Positions 127-15,571 of a DNA stretch of 45,820 bases are shown here, piece by piece. Location of the stretch: positions 1 to 45,820 of the forward strand of contig CAMGIN010000010.1 in assembly GCA_946056135.1 (NCBI GenBank). Reading direction: 5' to 3'. Within the stretch, counting starts at the first letter, position 1. Each line of letters opens with the position of its first letter. The position numbers and the translations under genes are program-made. The notes below the pieces were generated by a model. The model had not been told where the DNA came from and did no database searches. It saw nothing but the letters and a program-made list of their open reading frames with translations. Source of the stretch: an uncultured bacterium (lineage in GTDB: Bacteria > Bacillota > Clostridia > Oscillospirales > Oscillospiraceae).

Positions 127-494
127 AGCATTTTACCCTATGTTCGCCAACAGCAGAATTATGCAGACCGCAGATATCTCCCTGTTTCTGGGGTTTGAAA
201 ATCAAGGGTAGTGGAAATCGGAAAGTATTCCACCGCCAAATAAAACGATTTCATGAAATCGCGCTTCTTTGAATCGTGAACCATTTTCACAGAATCGCGG
301 GGCTTTTCACTGTTTCAAACCAAATCCCACGAAACAGGAAAGTGGGATAGGCTCACTTGTGAACAGGACATCATTATGGAAATTCTGAACGGATTTCCCC
401 AATTACACATTTTTCACTCACCAGCGAAGCGGATACGCCGTAGGGCGCACCGACTTCGCTATTTTCATCACTATTTTTATGGAGGTTTATCACA
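127..494 (+). other. Conserved non-coding leader of element A
   Basis: This stretch of about 370 bp has no convincing gene. From about 170 onward it is clearly similar in sequence to 13777-14088 in element B, for example around the shared block GAAATTCTGAACGGATTTC. The conservation in a non-coding region, with a conserved hairpin at 423-460, suggests a promoter and structured mRNA leader for the HTH-relaxase operon. Confidence 0.55.
423..460 (+). ncRNA. Conserved leader stem-loop (element A copy)
   Basis: The outer stem AGCGAAG (423-429) pairs perfectly with CTTCGCT (454-460). The inner stem GG.T..CGCC (431-439) pairs with GGCG..A.CC (444-451), around a G-T-A-G loop. The equivalent at 14015-14052 keeps the fold although several bases differ, including one full A-U to G-C swap. 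It sits 20 nt upstream of the ribosome binding site GGAGG at 481. Likely a cis-acting RNA element; function unknown. Confidence 0.55.
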
Positions 495-2882: not shown

Positions 2883-4809
2883 ATGCTACCTCTACACAAG
2901 AGTGTCCACCACCATGCAGGTCGATGGCTACAGTTTAGATGCCCAGCGTGACAAGCTCCGCAAATACGCTGACTACGAGGATATGGTTGTTGCCGGTGAA
3001 TACTCTGACGAAGGCTTCTCTGGTAAGAACATCCAGGGAAGACCGGAGTTCCAGCGGATGCTGAACGACATTCAGGATGGTAAAGATGGCGTTTCCTATG
3101 TGCTGGTCTTTAAGCTCTCCCGTTTCGGCAGAAATGCGGCGGACGTTCTGAACTCTTTGCAGCTTATGCAGGATTTCGGTGTCAATCTGATTTGCGTGGA
3201 AGATGGCATTGACAGTTCCAAGGATGCCGGTAAGCTGATGATCTCAGTCCTATCTGCTGTAGCAGAAATTGAGCGAGAGAACATCCGCTCACAGACAATG
3301 GCAGGACGGGAGCAGAAAGCCCGTGAAGGAAAATGGAACGGTGGTTTTGCCCCTTACGGCTACAAGCTGGAAAATGGAAATCTCGTCATCGCAGAAGATG
3401 AGGTTGAGGTCATCCGCATCATCTATGATCGCTATATTCACACCAACGAGGGCGTTGCCGGAGTTGCCAAATATCTGAACCGAAATGGCTTTGTAAAGAA
3501 ACTGCGGCAGAACAATACCATCCCCGGCTTCTCAAGAAATTTCGTGCAGGATGTGCTGGACAATCCCATCTACATGGGGAAGATTGCCTACGGCAGACGC
3601 AGGACAGAAAAGAAGCAGGGCACACGCAATGAGATGCATGTGGTCGAACAGTCTGAGTTTCCGGTTTATGACGGACAGCACGAGGCCATCATTTCCGAAG
3701 AAGATTGGTATCTGGCACAGGAAAAGCGCAAGATCAATTCCTTTAAGCGGGAAAAGGTCAACAATCCAGACCATGCCCACATCCTGTCCGGCATTCTGAG
3801 ATGTCCATGCTGTGGAAAAGGTATGTACGGCAACATCGCCAAAGCCCATGGCAGGGACAAGAAAACACGGTATTACTACTATTGCAAGAATACCATTACC
3901 GCTTCCGGCCATGAGTGCAGTTTCCGACTGAACATAGATCAGGCAGAGCTGAACAATGCAGTTGCCAAGATCATTTCCGCCATGGTCAATAAGCCCCGGT
4001 TTGCGGAAGCCATTCAAGCAAAGATCGGAACGGCAGTAGATACTGCGGCGCTGGAACAGCAGGTGGAGGTTTTGCAGGGGCGGCTGAAGCAAACCTTCGG
4101 CACGAAAACCCGGTTGGAGCGACAAATGGACACGCTGGATATTGGCGACCCGCACTATGACAGAAAAATTTCTGATTTGCAGCGCCGTTATGACGAACAA
4201 TATGATATCATGGTAGAAATCGAATCTCAGATTGATGAGCTGCAAAGTCAGATTCGCAGTATCCGGCAGGAGAAAATCTCCGGTGACAATATCTATCGGC
4301 TGCTCCTGGCCTTCGATGCGGTTTACAACTCCGCTACAGAAGCCGAGCGGAAGGAACTCATGAAGGCCTTCATCGAAAGAATTGACCTGTACCCGGAAAA
4401 GAGGAAGGATGGCTGCTGGATCAGGAGTATTGTATTTAATTTCCCGATGCCTGTTGAGGGCGGGGAAGTAAAAGAATTGTCCTTGGAATCTGAGACAACC
4501 GTCGAGACGGTATGTTTATTGTCCAAACTAAAATCGACGCAGCATATCGAAGTTGAGCTGGATATGGACGAGTTGGACTTGACCGATGCGGAGAAGAAAG
4601 CTACCTATCAAGAGATCAAGGATTATGTGCTGGAGCATACCGGATTGAAGGTCAGCAGCCTGTATATCGCACAGGTGAAGCAGAAATGCGGCATTATTGA
4701 GCGTGAAAACTACAATAAGCCGAAGTCTGAGGACGCAAAACAGCCGCAATGCCCACCGGATAAAGAAAAAGCAATCAAGGAGGCATTGAAGCATTTCGGC
4801 ATGATTTAA
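2863..4809 (+). CDS. Large serine recombinase with an rlmD-like C-terminal extension (element A)
   Basis: The protein has 648 residues. It starts at TTG 2863, 8 nt after AGGAGGTGG; no ATG fits. Domains: N-terminal resolvase catalytic domain (about 8-155) with the nucleophile Ser15 in Y-T-R-V-S-T; recombinase DNA-binding domain (about 165-290); a zinc ribbon (C-P-C-C-G-K-G-M-Y-G ... Y-C-K ... H-E-C) near 315-350; coiled coil around 375-470. It would integrate and excise the element by site-specific recombination. It matches the element B recombinase through the block V-E-T-V-C-L-L-S (coded at 4501-4524). The element B protein then ends within a few residues, while this one continues for about 95 more, into a sequence resembling the C-terminal tail of clostridial 23S rRNA methyltransferase RlmD (Y-I-A-Q-V-K-Q-K-C-G ... 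P-P-D-K-E-K-A-I). I infer that the reading frame crosses the attachment site into flanking DNA. Confidence 0.88.
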   Translation: MKKKQRKCYLYTRVSTTMQVDGYSLDAQRDKLRKYADYEDMVVAGEYSDEGFSGKNIQGRPEFQRMLNDIQDGKDGVSYVLVFKLSRFGRNAADVLNSLQLMQDFGVNLICVEDGIDSSKDAGKLMISVLSAVAEIERENIRSQTMAGREQKAREGKWNGGFAPYGYKLENGNLVIAEDEVEVIRIIYDRYIHTNEGVAGVAKYLNRNGFVKKLRQNNTIPGFSRNFVQDVLDNPIYMGKIAYGRRRTEKKQGTRNEMHVVEQSEFPVYDGQHEAIISEEDWYLAQEKRKINSFKREKVNNPDHAHILSGILRCPCCGKGMYGNIAKAHGRDKKTRYYYYCKNTITASGHECSFRLNIDQAELNNAVAKIISAMVNKPRFAEAIQAKIGTAVDTAALEQQVEVLQGRLKQTFGTKTRLERQMDTLDIGDPHYDRKISDLQRRYDEQYDIMVEIESQIDELQSQIRSIRQEKISGDNIYRLLLAFDAVYNSATEAERKELMKAFIERIDLYPEKRKDGCWIRSIVFNFPMPVEGGEVKELSLESETTVETVCLLSKLKSTQHIEVELDMDELDLTDAEKKATYQEIKDYVLEHTGLKVSSLYIAQVKQKCGIIERENYNKPKSEDAKQPQCPPDKEKAIKEALKHFGMI

Positions 4810-9389: not shown

Positions 9390-9540
9390 TGTATTTTCCG
9401 AAGAAAGGTGTCAAACTGCATTTTTACAGTTTGGGTACCATTTTCAAGGAAAATATGCGGGTGTCCAGAGGGGTGCAACTCCTTGGCTCTGGGTTTCCAA
9501 TAGGGGCGAGAAGCATCCCTGTTGGCACACGATTTTGCTT

Positions 9541-9568
9541 GCAAAGTCTAGTGTGTTATACCTTTTGC
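9541..9568 (+). other. Putative MobV-type origin of transfer (oriT)
   Basis: The core TAGTGTGTTATAC (9549-9561) matches the nick region of the pMV158-type (MobV) oriT, where the relaxase cuts between GTGTG and TTATAC; here that would be between 9555 and 9556. The core sits in the loop of an imperfect hairpin GCAAAG...CTTTTGC. A second overlapping hairpin (GATTTTGC / GCAAAGTC, from 9531) mimics the alternative structures known for MobV oriTs. Two MobV relaxases are encoded in this window. Confidence 0.7.
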
Positions 9569-11731: not shown

Positions 11732-12364
11732 ATGAACATTTATGAAAGCATCAAGGCGGCAGTCAGCGTAAAGCAAGCCGCCGAACACTACGGGCTGAAA
11801 GTGAGCCGCAACGGTATGGCTTGCTGCCCGTTCCACAATGACAGGCATCCGAGCTTGAAGCTGAACGAGGAATATTTCTTCTGCTTCGGCTGCGGAGCCA
11901 AGGGAGATGTGATCGACTTCGTGGCAAGGTTGTTTGATCTGAGCAGCTATGAAGCGGTGCAAAGACTGGCTGCGGACTTCGGTATCAGCACCGAACAAGG
12001 ACAGCCTGCGACAGCTCCCCTCAAGCCAAAGAATCCTTATATCCGTCAGTTCCGGGAGGACGAAATGCTCTGCTTCCGAGTGCTGACGGATTATTTGCAT
12101 CTGCTGGAAGATTGGAAAGTGCGGTATGCACCCAAAACACCGGACGATGCTCTGGATGACCGCTTTGTGGAAGCCTGCCACATGATTGATTATATCGAAT
12201 ATCTGGCAGATATTTTGACCGTGGGCGATCTGGAAGAACGTGTTACCGTGGTGGACGAGCTGATGAAAAACGGCAAGATCACGTTCCTGCACGACTACAC
12301 CGCAAGAAAGAAAAAGGAGGATGTGCGCCATGAGCGAAGAAAAGATGCAGACCTCGCCCTTTGA
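11732..12364 (+). CDS. CHC2 zinc-finger DNA primase (element B)
   Basis: This 210-residue protein starts at ATG 11732 after GGAGGAATGC. The N-terminal zinc finger is clear: C-C-P-F-H-N-D-R-H-P-S-L, then F-C-F-G-C-G-A-K-G-D-V-I-D-F (CHC2 type, as in DnaG and plasmid primases). The catalytic TOPRIM part of DnaG is absent, so this is the short form found beside P4-like helicases in mobile elements, and it probably acts with the next protein. It overlaps the helicase gene by 35 bp. Likely role: extrachromosomal replication of the excised circle. Confidence 0.82.
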   Translation: MNIYESIKAAVSVKQAAEHYGLKVSRNGMACCPFHNDRHPSLKLNEEYFFCFGCGAKGDVIDFVARLFDLSSYEAVQRLAADFGISTEQGQPATAPLKPKNPYIRQFREDEMLCFRVLTDYLHLLEDWKVRYAPKTPDDALDDRFVEACHMIDYIEYLADILTVGDLEERVTVVDELMKNGKITFLHDYTARKKKEDVRHERRKDADLAL

Positions 12365-13649
12365 GTGTCCGGCGTGGTTTGACGGAAAGAAAATCAATGA
12401 AACCGTGTTCTGCGAAGAATTCCTCCGGGACTATCCAATGGTCACGGTAAACGATGCGTTTTTCACAGTCAACGGCAGAGTACACGATGAAAACCGCTTG
12501 AAAAAGGTGATCTATGACCGTATCAAGTATTATGTGACAAGCGGCGTTGCAAAGAAAGTCACCAATCTTCTGGATGTGATGCGTATGGAGTGCTGCACCG
12601 CAAAGTTATCTCTATATCAAGACCGCATCCATGTGGCGAATGGCACTTATTATCTGAACGGCACATTCAGCCCCGAAAAGGATTTCTGCCGAAACCGTCT
12701 GCCCGTTGCCTATAATCCCGATGCTCCGCAGCCTGTGACATGGCTGCATTTTTTGTCCCAGCTTTTAGAGCCGGAGGACATTCTGACATTGCAGGAGTTT
12801 ATGGGATATTGCTTTATCCCCTCTACCAAGGGACAGAAGATGCTCCTGCTCATCGGCAAGGGCGGCGAGGGCAAAAGCCGTATCGGTATCGTTCTTCGTG
12901 CGCTGCTTGGCAGCAATATGAACACGGGCAGTATCGCAAAAGTGGAGACAAGCCCTTTTGCTCGTGCCGATCTGGAACATGAGCTTGTAATGCTGGACGA
13001 TGATATGAAGCTGGAAGCTCTGCCCCAGACCAACAACATCAAGGCAATCATCACAGCAGAGCTGCCGATGGATTTGGAGAAAAAGGGACAGCAGAGCTAT
13101 CAAGGTGATTTGTATGTGCGCTTCATCGGTTTGGGCAACGGTGTCCTGCAATCTCTCTATGACCGCAGCGTGGGCTTTTTTCGCAGACAGATCATCCTCT
13201 CCACCAAGGAAAAAGATCCGAACAGAAAGGACGATCCCTATATTGCTGAGAAGATGTGCGCCGAAGCGGAGGGCATTTTCCTGTGGGCATTGGAGGGATT
13301 GCACCGTCTGATCGGCAATGATTACAAGTTCACGGTGAGCCAGTCGGCACAGGACAACATGGACGCTGCCGTATCGGACGGAAACAACATCATCGAGTTT
13401 TTAAGCTCCGAGGGGTATATCCGCTTCAAGGCAGATTACGAGGTCAGCTCCAAAGACCTGTACGCCGTTTATAAGCTGTGGTGTGACGATAACGCTTTGA
13501 GCAGCCTTTCCCAAAAGAGCTTCTGCTCCTTCCTCAAACAGAACGAGAGCCGGTATAACATCGAGTACACCAATAAGGTCAATATCGGCGGCGGGAGGTA
13601 TGCCAGAGGATTTGTCGGCATCGAGCTTCTGCAAAGACCGTTTCTGTAA
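12330..13649 (+). CDS. P4/D5-type replication helicase (element B)
   Basis: This 439-residue protein starts at ATG 12330 (GGAGG with a 9-nt spacer); an upstream ATG at 12321 sits too close to that site. The Walker A motif is L-I-G-K-G-G-E-G-K-S-R-I-G; the Walker B-like motif is E-L-V-M-L-D-D-D-M-K. A D5_N-like region lies before it, and a small winged-helix-like C-terminus comes after residue 350. This is the superfamily 3 helicase pattern of phage/plasmid P4-type primase-helicases. An inverted repeat (13684-13721) lies 35 bp beyond the stop and is a candidate origin for it. The window begins with the tail of a homolog. Confidence 0.82.
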   Translation: MSEEKMQTSPFECPAWFDGKKINETVFCEEFLRDYPMVTVNDAFFTVNGRVHDENRLKKVIYDRIKYYVTSGVAKKVTNLLDVMRMECCTAKLSLYQDRIHVANGTYYLNGTFSPEKDFCRNRLPVAYNPDAPQPVTWLHFLSQLLEPEDILTLQEFMGYCFIPSTKGQKMLLLIGKGGEGKSRIGIVLRALLGSNMNTGSIAKVETSPFARADLEHELVMLDDDMKLEALPQTNNIKAIITAELPMDLEKKGQQSYQGDLYVRFIGLGNGVLQSLYDRSVGFFRRQIILSTKEKDPNRKDDPYIAEKMCAEAEGIFLWALEGLHRLIGNDYKFTVSQSAQDNMDAAVSDGNNIIEFLSSEGYIRFKADYEVSSKDLYAVYKLWCDDNALSSLSQKSFCSFLKQNESRYNIEYTNKVNIGGGRYARGFVGIELLQRPFL

Positions 13650-13683
13650 AAATGGTATTGACCCCAAAATACGTGTACCATCC

Positions 13684-13721
13684 GTACCAAGTGTACCGCA
13701 GTACAGAAGTACACTTGGTAC
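13684..13721. repeat. Perfect 13-bp inverted repeat, candidate origin (element B)
   Basis: GTACCAAGTGTAC (13684-13696) and GTACACTTGGTAC (13709-13721) are perfect complements with a 12-bp spacer. Flanking ACGTGTACC/ACACGTAC add to the GTAC-rich pattern. It lies just after the helicase gene and 368 bp before the HTH start, the same layout as in element A. Confidence 0.6.
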
Positions 13722-14014
13722 ACGTACTTTTTAGTCCGTTTCACTTTCTTTTTCTATGCTGTTGGCAGAAACCCTGTTTTCGGGCATTGAAAATCAATGG
13801 TAGTGGAAACAGGAAAGATTTTGACCGCAGAACAAAACCATTTAACGAAATCGTGCTTCTCTGAACAATGCGCCCCGTTCACGGAACAATGGGTGTTTTC
13901 TCTGTTCCAGACCAAACCACACGAAACAGTAAAGTGGGATATGGTCATATATGGACAGGACATCACAAGCGAAATTCTGAACGGATTTCAGAGATTACAG
14001 ATTTTTCACTATTC

Positions 14015-14052
14015 GGTGAAGTGGGTATGCCGTAGGGCGTACCGTTTTCGCC
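14015..14052 (+). ncRNA. Conserved leader stem-loop (element B copy)
   Basis: The outer stem GGTGAA (14015-14020) pairs with TTCGCC (14047-14052). The inner stem GGTATGCC (14024-14031) pairs with GGCGTACC (14036-14043), with a G-T-A-G loop. Compared with 423-460, the base pairs are kept while bases change (A-U to G-C, C-G to U-G, G-C to G-U, C-G to U-G). It lies 20 nt upstream of GGAGG. Confidence 0.55.
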
Positions 14053-14088
14053 ATATCACAAACAAAATTTATGGAGGATTTTATCAAT

Positions 14089-14304
14089 ATGAATGTACGC
14101 AACGAAATAAAGGCACAGATCATCCGTACCGGAATGACCATGCAGCAGGTGGTTGACCAGCTCTCGGTCGAATACGGATGGAGTGACAGTGTATCCAACC
14201 TGTCCGCAAAATTGCAGAGAGAGAGTATCCGATACAAGGAAGTCGTCGAGCTTGCTGATGTGCTGGGCTACGACATCGTATGGCAGAAAAGGAGGGACAA
14301 ATAA
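14089..14304 (+). CDS. Small helix-turn-helix protein of mobilizable element (element B)
   Basis: This 71-residue protein starts at ATG 14089, behind GGAGG at 14073, and is a close homolog of the protein at 495-707 (shared S-N-L-S-A-K-L-Q-R-E-S-I-R-Y-K-E-V). The stop codon overlaps the relaxase ATG by one base, so translation is coupled and a joint function in mobilization is likely. It is repressor-like with a helix-turn-helix, DUF6471-like by eye. Its conserved leader hairpin may be a target of autoregulation. Confidence 0.72.
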   Translation: MNVRNEIKAQIIRTGMTMQQVVDQLSVEYGWSDSVSNLSAKLQRESIRYKEVVELADVLGYDIVWQKRRDK

Positions 14305-15284
14305 TGGCAAATGCACAGTACGCTATTTTACGATTTGCGAAATACAAGGGACCGGAGATCAGCGGCATTGAAGCGCATAACGAGCGCACCAAGGAGAAAT
14401 ACGCAAGCAATCCCGACATTGACCCGTCCCGTACACACCTTAACTTCCACCTTATCAAGCCGGAACGCAAATACAGGGCAGAATCCGAAAGGCAGATTGC
14501 AGAGGCAGGATGCCGCACACGTTCCGACAGCGTTCGTGTGGTGGAAGCTCTGATCACGGCAACACCGGAGTTCTTCAAGGGGAAGAAAAAAGCTGAAATC
14601 CGTGAGTTCTTCAATGAAGCGTTGGAGTTCATCAAGCAAAATCAAGCCCCCGAAACTATTATATCCGCTGTGGTGCATCTGGACGAGAAATCGCCCCATA
14701 TGCACCTTTGTTTTGTCCCGCTGACCGAGGATAAGCGTTTATGCGCCAAGGAGATTTTGGGCAACAAGAAAAAGCTGACCCAGTGGCAGGACAAGTATTG
14801 GGAACACATGGTAAAGAAATATCCCGATCTGGAACGTGGCGAAAGTGCCAGCGAAACCGGGCGTGACCACATCCCTACAAGGGTATTCAAGCAGATGGCA
14901 CGTCTGAACAAACAGCATGACAAGCTGGCGGAACTGCTCTCCGATGTGAAATTCACGAACTACAAGGAGCGTTCCGCACAGATTGCGGCATTTCTTGAAA
15001 AGTATATCCCCGATGTCGCCGCTATGGAAACGCAGATGAAGAAATACGAAAAGTTCTTCAGAACAGCGGACGGAAAGCAGAAGGCATTGGAAAAGAAAAA
15101 TGACGAGCTGACCGCTGCTCTGGAAAAGAGCGAGAAAGAAAGCACCGTCAAGAAGTTGCAGGAAATGCGTCTGCACAGCGATTACGAGCGTGTCAAGGGG
15201 ATTCTTGACCGTATCCCGCCGGAGATTATCCGAGCATATACACATCGTGACAGCAAAACGCAGGAGGTACACCATTATAGATAA
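14304..15284 (+). CDS. MobV-family relaxase (element B)
   Basis: This 326-residue protein starts at ATG 14304 (GGAGGG at 14291). The N-terminal A-N-A-Q-Y-A-I-L-R-F-A-K-Y-K and I-E-A-H-N-E-R match the Pre/Mob family. The H-x-H motif is S-P-H-M-H-L-C-F-V-P-L. The C-terminus is a charged coiled coil (about 220-300). It is expected to nick the MobV-type oriT. The nearest recognised oriT is at 9541-9568, some 4.7 kb upstream at the other end of element B. Confidence 0.85.
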   Translation: MANAQYAILRFAKYKGPEISGIEAHNERTKEKYASNPDIDPSRTHLNFHLIKPERKYRAESERQIAEAGCRTRSDSVRVVEALITATPEFFKGKKKAEIREFFNEALEFIKQNQAPETIISAVVHLDEKSPHMHLCFVPLTEDKRLCAKEILGNKKKLTQWQDKYWEHMVKKYPDLERGESASETGRDHIPTRVFKQMARLNKQHDKLAELLSDVKFTNYKERSAQIAAFLEKYIPDVAAMETQMKKYEKFFRTADGKQKALEKKNDELTAALEKSEKESTVKKLQEMRLHSDYERVKGILDRIPPEIIRAYTHRDSKTQEVHHYR

Positions 15285-15468
15285 CAGAAAAAAGGATGAA
15301 TGGAGCGGCTTTGCCGATTTACTTGCCAACTTAATAGAGAAATATGCGGCGGTTCTGGATATTGAAAATCTTCCGGAGCCGCCGATTTGTTTGGACAGCG
15401 AGAAAAAAGAAATTGTAAACAATTCCAAACTTTTTGCGGAATCTATTGAAAAAACGGACATTGCGTGA
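15274..15468 (+). CDS. Small hypothetical protein following the relaxase (possible ATT start), element B
   Basis: An open frame overlaps the end of the relaxase gene. Ignoring the long N-terminal part that is only the relaxase in another frame, the best initiation site is ATT at 15274, 6 nt after GGAGG (15263-15267), giving 64 residues. The product resembles the protein at 2382-2567 in the L-I-E-K-Y segment. Non-standard start codons in both copies suggest deliberately low expression. The recombinase promoter lies over the 3' end of this gene. Function unknown. Confidence 0.5.
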   Translation: MIDNRKKDEWSGFADLLANLIEKYAAVLDIENLPEPPICLDSEKKEIVNNSKLFAESIEKTDIA

Positions 15469-15524
15469 TATAATATACGTGTGATGAGTGTCCAAACCTA
15501 CTCTGAGAGTGATTTCGGAGTAGG
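15446..15524 (+). promoter_or_regulatory. Extended -10 promoter and hairpin leader of the element B recombinase
   Basis: TTGAAA (15446-15451), 17 bp, then TGATATAAT with -10 at 15469-15474. The leader has CCTACTC (15497-15503) / GAGTAGG (15518-15524) and, overlapping it, ACTCT-G-AGAGT. These two stems exclude each other. Confidence 0.65.
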
Positions 15525-15571
15525 GGTTACATAACGGTGCTGCATACGGCGGCACGAATGAGGATGACGAT

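Follow-up and report, generated by a model that had tools for sequence, protein, structure and literature searches.

The analysed DNA (the window, a 45,820-nt stretch from an uncultured member of the Oscillospiraceae) carries two mobile elements, A and B, and the genes, stem-loops, conserved blocks, ribosome-binding sites and probable origins located below lie on its + strand. Element A contains a gene for a small HTH-like protein of 70 amino acids (495-707) followed by a MobV-like relaxase gene (1079-2365). Element B contains a P4-family primase/helicase gene (12321-13649), a gene for an HTH-like protein of 71 amino acids (14089-14304) and, overlapping the latter, a MobV relaxase gene (14280-15284). 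Both relaxases match Pfam Mob_Pre, with relaxase A below and relaxase B above the NCBIfam MobV cutoff, and the two are only about 24% identical. The match of the HTH protein to DUF6471 (PF20075) was weak, just under the Pfam cut-off; a PDB search with the HTH profile returned nothing significant, and no mention of DUF6471 was found in the literature searched. Upstream of each HTH gene is a conserved non-coding block of about 290 nt (205-478 and 13797-14070), which ends in a stem-loop (423-460 in copy A and 14015-14052 in copy B). A GGAGG ribosome-binding site (481-485 and 14073-14077) follows 20 nt 3' of each hairpin. Further downstream in element B, a strong promoter-like sequence (TTGAAA-17-TATAAT, within 15446-15530) precedes a serine recombinase gene, the leader of which has a hairpin of its own (CCTACTC...GAGTAGG) after that sequence.

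A search for relatives, with the 70-aa HTH protein as query, yielded 80 genome loci and five viral-contig loci; one viral locus was added later. Their hosts are mostly gut Clostridia, uncultured and cultured, plus one Collinsella. Nearly all of the loci share a gene order of P4-type primase, about 440 nt of non-coding DNA, HTH gene, relaxase and large serine recombinases. The leader DNA had no match on known plasmids, where remote HTH matches on two C. difficile plasmids were all that was found. Four HTH genes of this class are present in the source genome (two on contig C10 and one each on C144 and C33), so this single metagenome-assembled genome may hold up to four such elements; a further contig, C149, may be the upstream part of element A.

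The relaxase behind the leader varies among the loci, being of the type encoded at 1079 (type A), of the type encoded at 14280 (type B), or a MobA/MobL protein, as in locus L077 (PF03389, E 7e-92); none of the three was found in the stretch covering locus L042. Leaders that are more than 93% identical in the block precede different relaxases, which suggests, from sequence comparison, that relaxase modules have been swapped behind a fixed control region. Loci L077 (3860-5566) and L050, for example, have near-identical leaders and HTH genes, followed by a MobA/MobL relaxase in the former and a MobV relaxase in the latter.

Covariation and distribution of the stem-loop

Both copies of the stem-loop have a 7-bp outer stem (423-429/454-460 and 14015-14021/14046-14052) and a GTAG loop, with a GC-rich inner stem in copy A and an 8-bp inner stem in copy B. 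The RNA folding energies on the + strand were -22.2 kcal/mol (z about -4.4) for copy A and -23.6 kcal/mol (z about -5.0) for copy B, and none of 200 shuffled sequences folded as well as the real hairpins. An earlier sequence-only reading had proposed, from differences between the two copies, that this is a selected RNA structure, and each of the base changes on which it relied was correct. The A-T pair 423-460 is G-C at 14015-14052; the C-G pair 425-458 becomes T-G at 14017-14050; the G-C pair 429-454 becomes G-T at 14021-14046; and the C-G pair 436-447 becomes T-G at 14028-14039. The 20-nt spacing to the ribosome-binding site given in that reading was also exact in both copies. One of these pairs has changed two-sidedly and three one-sidedly and, with only one true two-sided change between two copies, the pair of sequences alone is therefore little proof. 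The accompanying statement that the copies fold alike needs qualifying for the middle of the stem, which is not identical: read in the register of copy B, copy A has two A.C mismatches (433-450 and 435-448), and the inner pairs are displaced in its minimum-energy fold.

Covariation was examined across 61 distinct leaders with custom scripts, including an R-scape-like single-pair test, rather than with R-scape itself. Standard pairs occupied 82.8% of the pair cells, against no more than 46.3% in any control with a slid register, and the covariation score was 0.345, against 0.224 ± 0.011 in shuffles. For a phylogenetic null, the hairpin columns were left out in building a tree with FastTree, and the substitutions were then re-thrown onto its branches in 500 simulations. 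Compensated double changes amounted to 16.2, where 2.9 ± 1.7 were expected on the tree, and pairing to 0.835, where 0.647 ± 0.063 was expected; neither value was reached in any of the 500 simulations. The inner stem also covaried, with its compensated changes matched by two of the 500 nulls. Individual pairs were not significant against the phylogenetic null in the R-scape-like test (best E about 2.5), because only a few changes have ever occurred per column.

When the block was scanned for co-evolving inverted segments, the hairpin ranked first (z 8.6). The runner-up, a loop-to-flank alternative pairing at 14029/14051 (z 5.2), probably reflects the split of one clade. A chance fold or an alignment artefact could be invoked on the grounds that no single pair is significant and that the sampled set amounts to only about 26 effective sequences; set against the folding z-scores, the slid and shuffled controls and the 500 tree simulations, however, this explanation is scarcely credible. 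The hairpin is real and is kept by matching mutations on both arms, and it is common to the leaders of the HTH genes in both elements and in dozens of relatives. The description of the stem as covarying thus stands for the helix as a whole and not for its individual pairs, and the two-copy argument was weak, though its outcome proved right.

The hairpin was retained by nearly all close relatives. Among 69 aligned leaders it was clearly missing in three: L053 has lost the hairpin, and in L069 and L090 the entire segment is gone and another, different hairpin lies further upstream. Elsewhere, L101 and L119 have no hairpin, that of L112/L113 and L099 is shorter, and in L100 and L103 the position is taken by big hairpins with a quite different sequence. 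Absence from most homologous leaders, the outcome that would have spoken against a selected structure, was thus not seen among close relatives, but remoter leaders have lost, shortened or replaced the hairpin, which thus characterises a single broad branch of the HTH family rather than all of it. A model search of 391 genomes of the class found full-scoring hairpins only in genomes with the HTH gene; there were two weak extra matches, one of them resembling an ordinary terminator in another genome. In locus L096, upstream of the HTH gene at 3001, the terminator-like hairpin lies about 100 nt further up and a second hairpin (CAAGTG...CACTTG) lies just before the ribosome-binding site.

The sequences of the stem arms and loop are highly variable among the leaders, with the fold retained, whereas the HTH segment is nearly invariant. 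This bears on two readings in which the hairpin is a protein target. In the first, the RNA would be bound by a protein, most simply the HTH protein itself, which would repress translation or stabilise the mRNA in an autoregulatory manner, as the earlier reading had suggested. The fixed place before the HTH ribosome-binding site fits such a role, as do two primase loci that lack both the HTH gene and the block. In pairwise comparisons of 52 loci, in which kinship was ignored and to which linkage contributes, the block also tracked the HTH protein (rho 0.63) more closely than it did the primase (rho 0.40). However, linkage alone could produce that correlation, the hairpin itself tracked the HTH protein weakly (rho 0.36 over the same loci, pairwise, kinship ignored), and the ribosome-binding site is outside the stem. 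As both arms change while the HTH segment hardly does, sequence-specific recognition of the stem is unlikely, and we consider autoregulation through this hairpin rather improbable.

In the second, the hairpin would be the by-product of a double-stranded palindromic operator, the half-sites of which change together, since inverted repeats read by a dimer also covary. A test of the working strand is compatible with this: the excess of G-T over A-C steps was 13.5, against 5.4 ± 5.8 in the tree simulation, and so within the null. The near-invariance of the nearest candidate binder nevertheless argues against an operator, as does the covariation of the inner stem, which is expected of a full-length stem, leaving this reading only a slim chance.

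Probable replication and transfer origins of the elements

In satellite elements the origin of replication often lies in the intergenic DNA that follows the gene for a P4-type primase, and this is where the hairpin is located. The block, with its repeated motifs and near absence of indels, would also suit a role of the hairpin as a DNA-level part of that origin. Better candidates are nevertheless present: palindromic GTGTACC repeats at 13666-13730, just 3' of the primase gene. The repeat motif at this position differs by element, being GTGTACC in the window, ATCCC in L115, GTGCCTA in L121 and GTGTC in L123, and its sequence evolves with the primase (rho 0.78 for the palindrome region, against 0.43 for the hairpin, over 52 loci compared pairwise with kinship ignored; linkage contributes to the former value). 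L121 and L123, the primase loci without an HTH gene, have such repeats and no recognisable block or hairpin. The palindromic repeats are, on these sequence comparisons, the probable replication origin, and the hairpin was not found to co-evolve with the primase in the manner of an origin repeat; its participation in the origin is distinctly improbable.

Candidate transfer origins were found apart from the hairpin in both elements. A probable oriT of relaxase A is located at 987-1013 (AAAGTATCATAGTGGGTTATTACACTT), with a nick-like core, TAGTGGGTTA, at 996-1005; it is the counterpart in the window of an inverted repeat like AAAGTGTAATAGTGGGTTATTACACTTT that is present in the MobV-A loci spanning the gap between the HTH and relaxase genes. 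We take inverted repeats of this kind to be closely similar to the oriT of pMV158. The one in L014 folds as single-stranded DNA with a z-score of -5.4. In element B a probable oriT lies at 9540-9568, about 4.5 kb upstream of the hairpin, with TAGTGTGTTATAC at 9549-9561. Twelve genomes with B-type loci were searched with up to one mismatch allowed, and every one of them contains TAGTGTGTTATAC exactly. Most have a copy on the strand of the HTH gene, some 3.7-5.3 kb upstream of it (by contig positions, contig identity being checkable in part of the cases); L068 and L046 do not fit this placement. The nick core TAGTGTG/TTA is present at 996-1005 and 9549-9558, and was not found within or beside the hairpin.

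The proposal of the earlier reading that the hairpin might be a target of the relaxase is not supported, given these sites and the occurrence of the same leader before two MobV types that are 24% identical and before MobA/MobL relaxases. The hairpin was rejected as oriT, pMV158-like nick sites being located elsewhere for both MobV types. The leader does not change together with the relaxase type, as the identity of the block was 0.643 between loci with the same type and 0.628 between loci with different types.

The hairpin might still work as single-stranded DNA in the conjugatively transferred strand, as an accessory part of oriT or a start for second-strand synthesis. The + strand carries both of the probable nick sites, which would place the hairpin in the transferred strand, and both copies fold as single-stranded DNA on that strand (copy B barely does so on the - strand). 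DNA hairpins are, moreover, how the oriT of pMV158 works (PMC5863519). The positions of the probable oriT sites and the indifference of the leader to relaxase type both count against this, and informal inspection of the loops revealed no known single-strand-origin motif; a single-stranded DNA role is possible though unlikely. The hairpin is inferred from its position to act as RNA instead: the 20 nt between stem and ribosome-binding site leave no room for a promoter and the block showed no conserved sigma-A promoter, so the hairpin should be in the mRNA.

The leader as a proposed control region

The block that ends in the hairpin (13797 to about 14070 in copy B) aligns across 67 leaders with hardly any indel, and CACGAAA- and GAAACAG-like motifs recur within it; it may hold more interest than the hairpin. 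An upstream open reading frame through the block was considered, as the frame is fairly open from a start-like codon at 13803. It was rejected, since most relatives have in-frame stops and there is no codon periodicity. Synonymous changes also spoke against a coding function (0.17, against 0.73 in the HTH control). In every one of the 64 leaders counted, positions 13803-13805 or the sites aligned with them read GTG, ATG or TTG, and never CTG, yet the frame that follows this start-codon-like position is without coding conservation. Folding of the whole block into one RNA was likewise rejected, as no helix besides the hairpin stood out in the inverted-segment scan.

The hairpin has the stable, GC-rich stem of intrinsic transcription terminators. 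At least four T occur in the 7 nt after the stem in 57% of the leaders, compared with 9% of background windows, which suggests an attenuator that resembles an intrinsic terminator and meets transcription arriving from the primase side. All the leaders cannot have intrinsic termination as their common function, however, as a T-rich tail is missing from copy B and its clade, and also from the L013-L038 group and a few more, about 31% of the tails have two T or fewer, and only 18 of the 67 leaders passed a terminator-type score. A scan of the window listed no terminator at 423-460 or 14015-14052, and no alternative antiterminator fold was identified. The more T an element had after the palindrome of the probable replication origin, the less it tended to have after the hairpin (rho -0.42, kinship ignored), a trade-off that would fit termination having been moved between the two sites.

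The likeliest account, which we hold tentatively, is that the hairpin is a cis-acting, terminator- or attenuator-like leader element of the HTH-relaxase mRNA in these integrative mobilizable elements (IMEs). Transcripts from the primase side would run through the intergenic region of about 440 nt, and the stem-loop would fold 20 nt before the HTH ribosome-binding site and serve as an operon-internal attenuator or insulator. In the leaders with a T-rich tail, which are more than half, the stem may be a partial intrinsic terminator; in those without one, such as copy B, the bare hairpin could pause RNA polymerase or set a boundary for mRNA processing or stability. The net effect would be to hold expression of the HTH and transfer genes below that of the replication genes. 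Most likely, to judge from the sequences, the hairpin tunes the amount of transfer-gene message.

Several features are shared with the intrinsic terminators and leader attenuators of Bacillota, namely the GC-rich stem, the T-rich tail in most leaders and the location within an intergenic leader, a short way ahead of a ribosome-binding site. Unlike those, the stem studied here is kept by covariation even in lineages without a T tail, has no identified antiterminator fold or ligand, and ends a long, nearly gap-free conserved non-coding block. A second comparison is with plasmid pMV158 (MOBV1), in which a hairpin-forming region likewise lies upstream of a MobV relaxase gene and the autoregulated mobM gene has promoters that overlap oriT (PMC5863519). 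In contrast to that region, the present stem is without a nick core, is apart from the pMV158-like nick sites in both elements, and also precedes MobA/MobL relaxases. Finally, serine-recombinase IMEs such as Tn4451 have a MobV relaxase and a large serine recombinase (reviewed in PMC5704250). The present elements have the same pairing and differ in adding a P4-type primase, a DUF6471-like HTH gene and the conserved leader. No description of this leader was found in the passages of the IME literature consulted.

The earlier remark that no described RNA family was known with this position was borne out, as Rfam 15 gave no match above the gathering threshold in the entire window; near leader B there were sub-threshold matches only, outside the hairpin, and for the leader of L050 there were none. 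The hairpin is an uncatalogued leader hairpin of an already known kind. A bolder view, which we regard as doubtful, sees in the block and hairpin together a leader control region of a new kind. It would move along with the DUF6471-like HTH gene and govern the transfer operon irrespective of the relaxase that follows, and the hairpin would be the RNA switch of its output.

The analysis sets the hairpin apart from oriT, with which it is easily confused in MobV elements. If the interpretation is correct, a single uncatalogued control region is common to a large family of mobilizable elements of the gut and has outlasted relaxase swaps. The leader could then be used as a marker in the search for these elements, and could open a way into how their replication and transfer genes are balanced.
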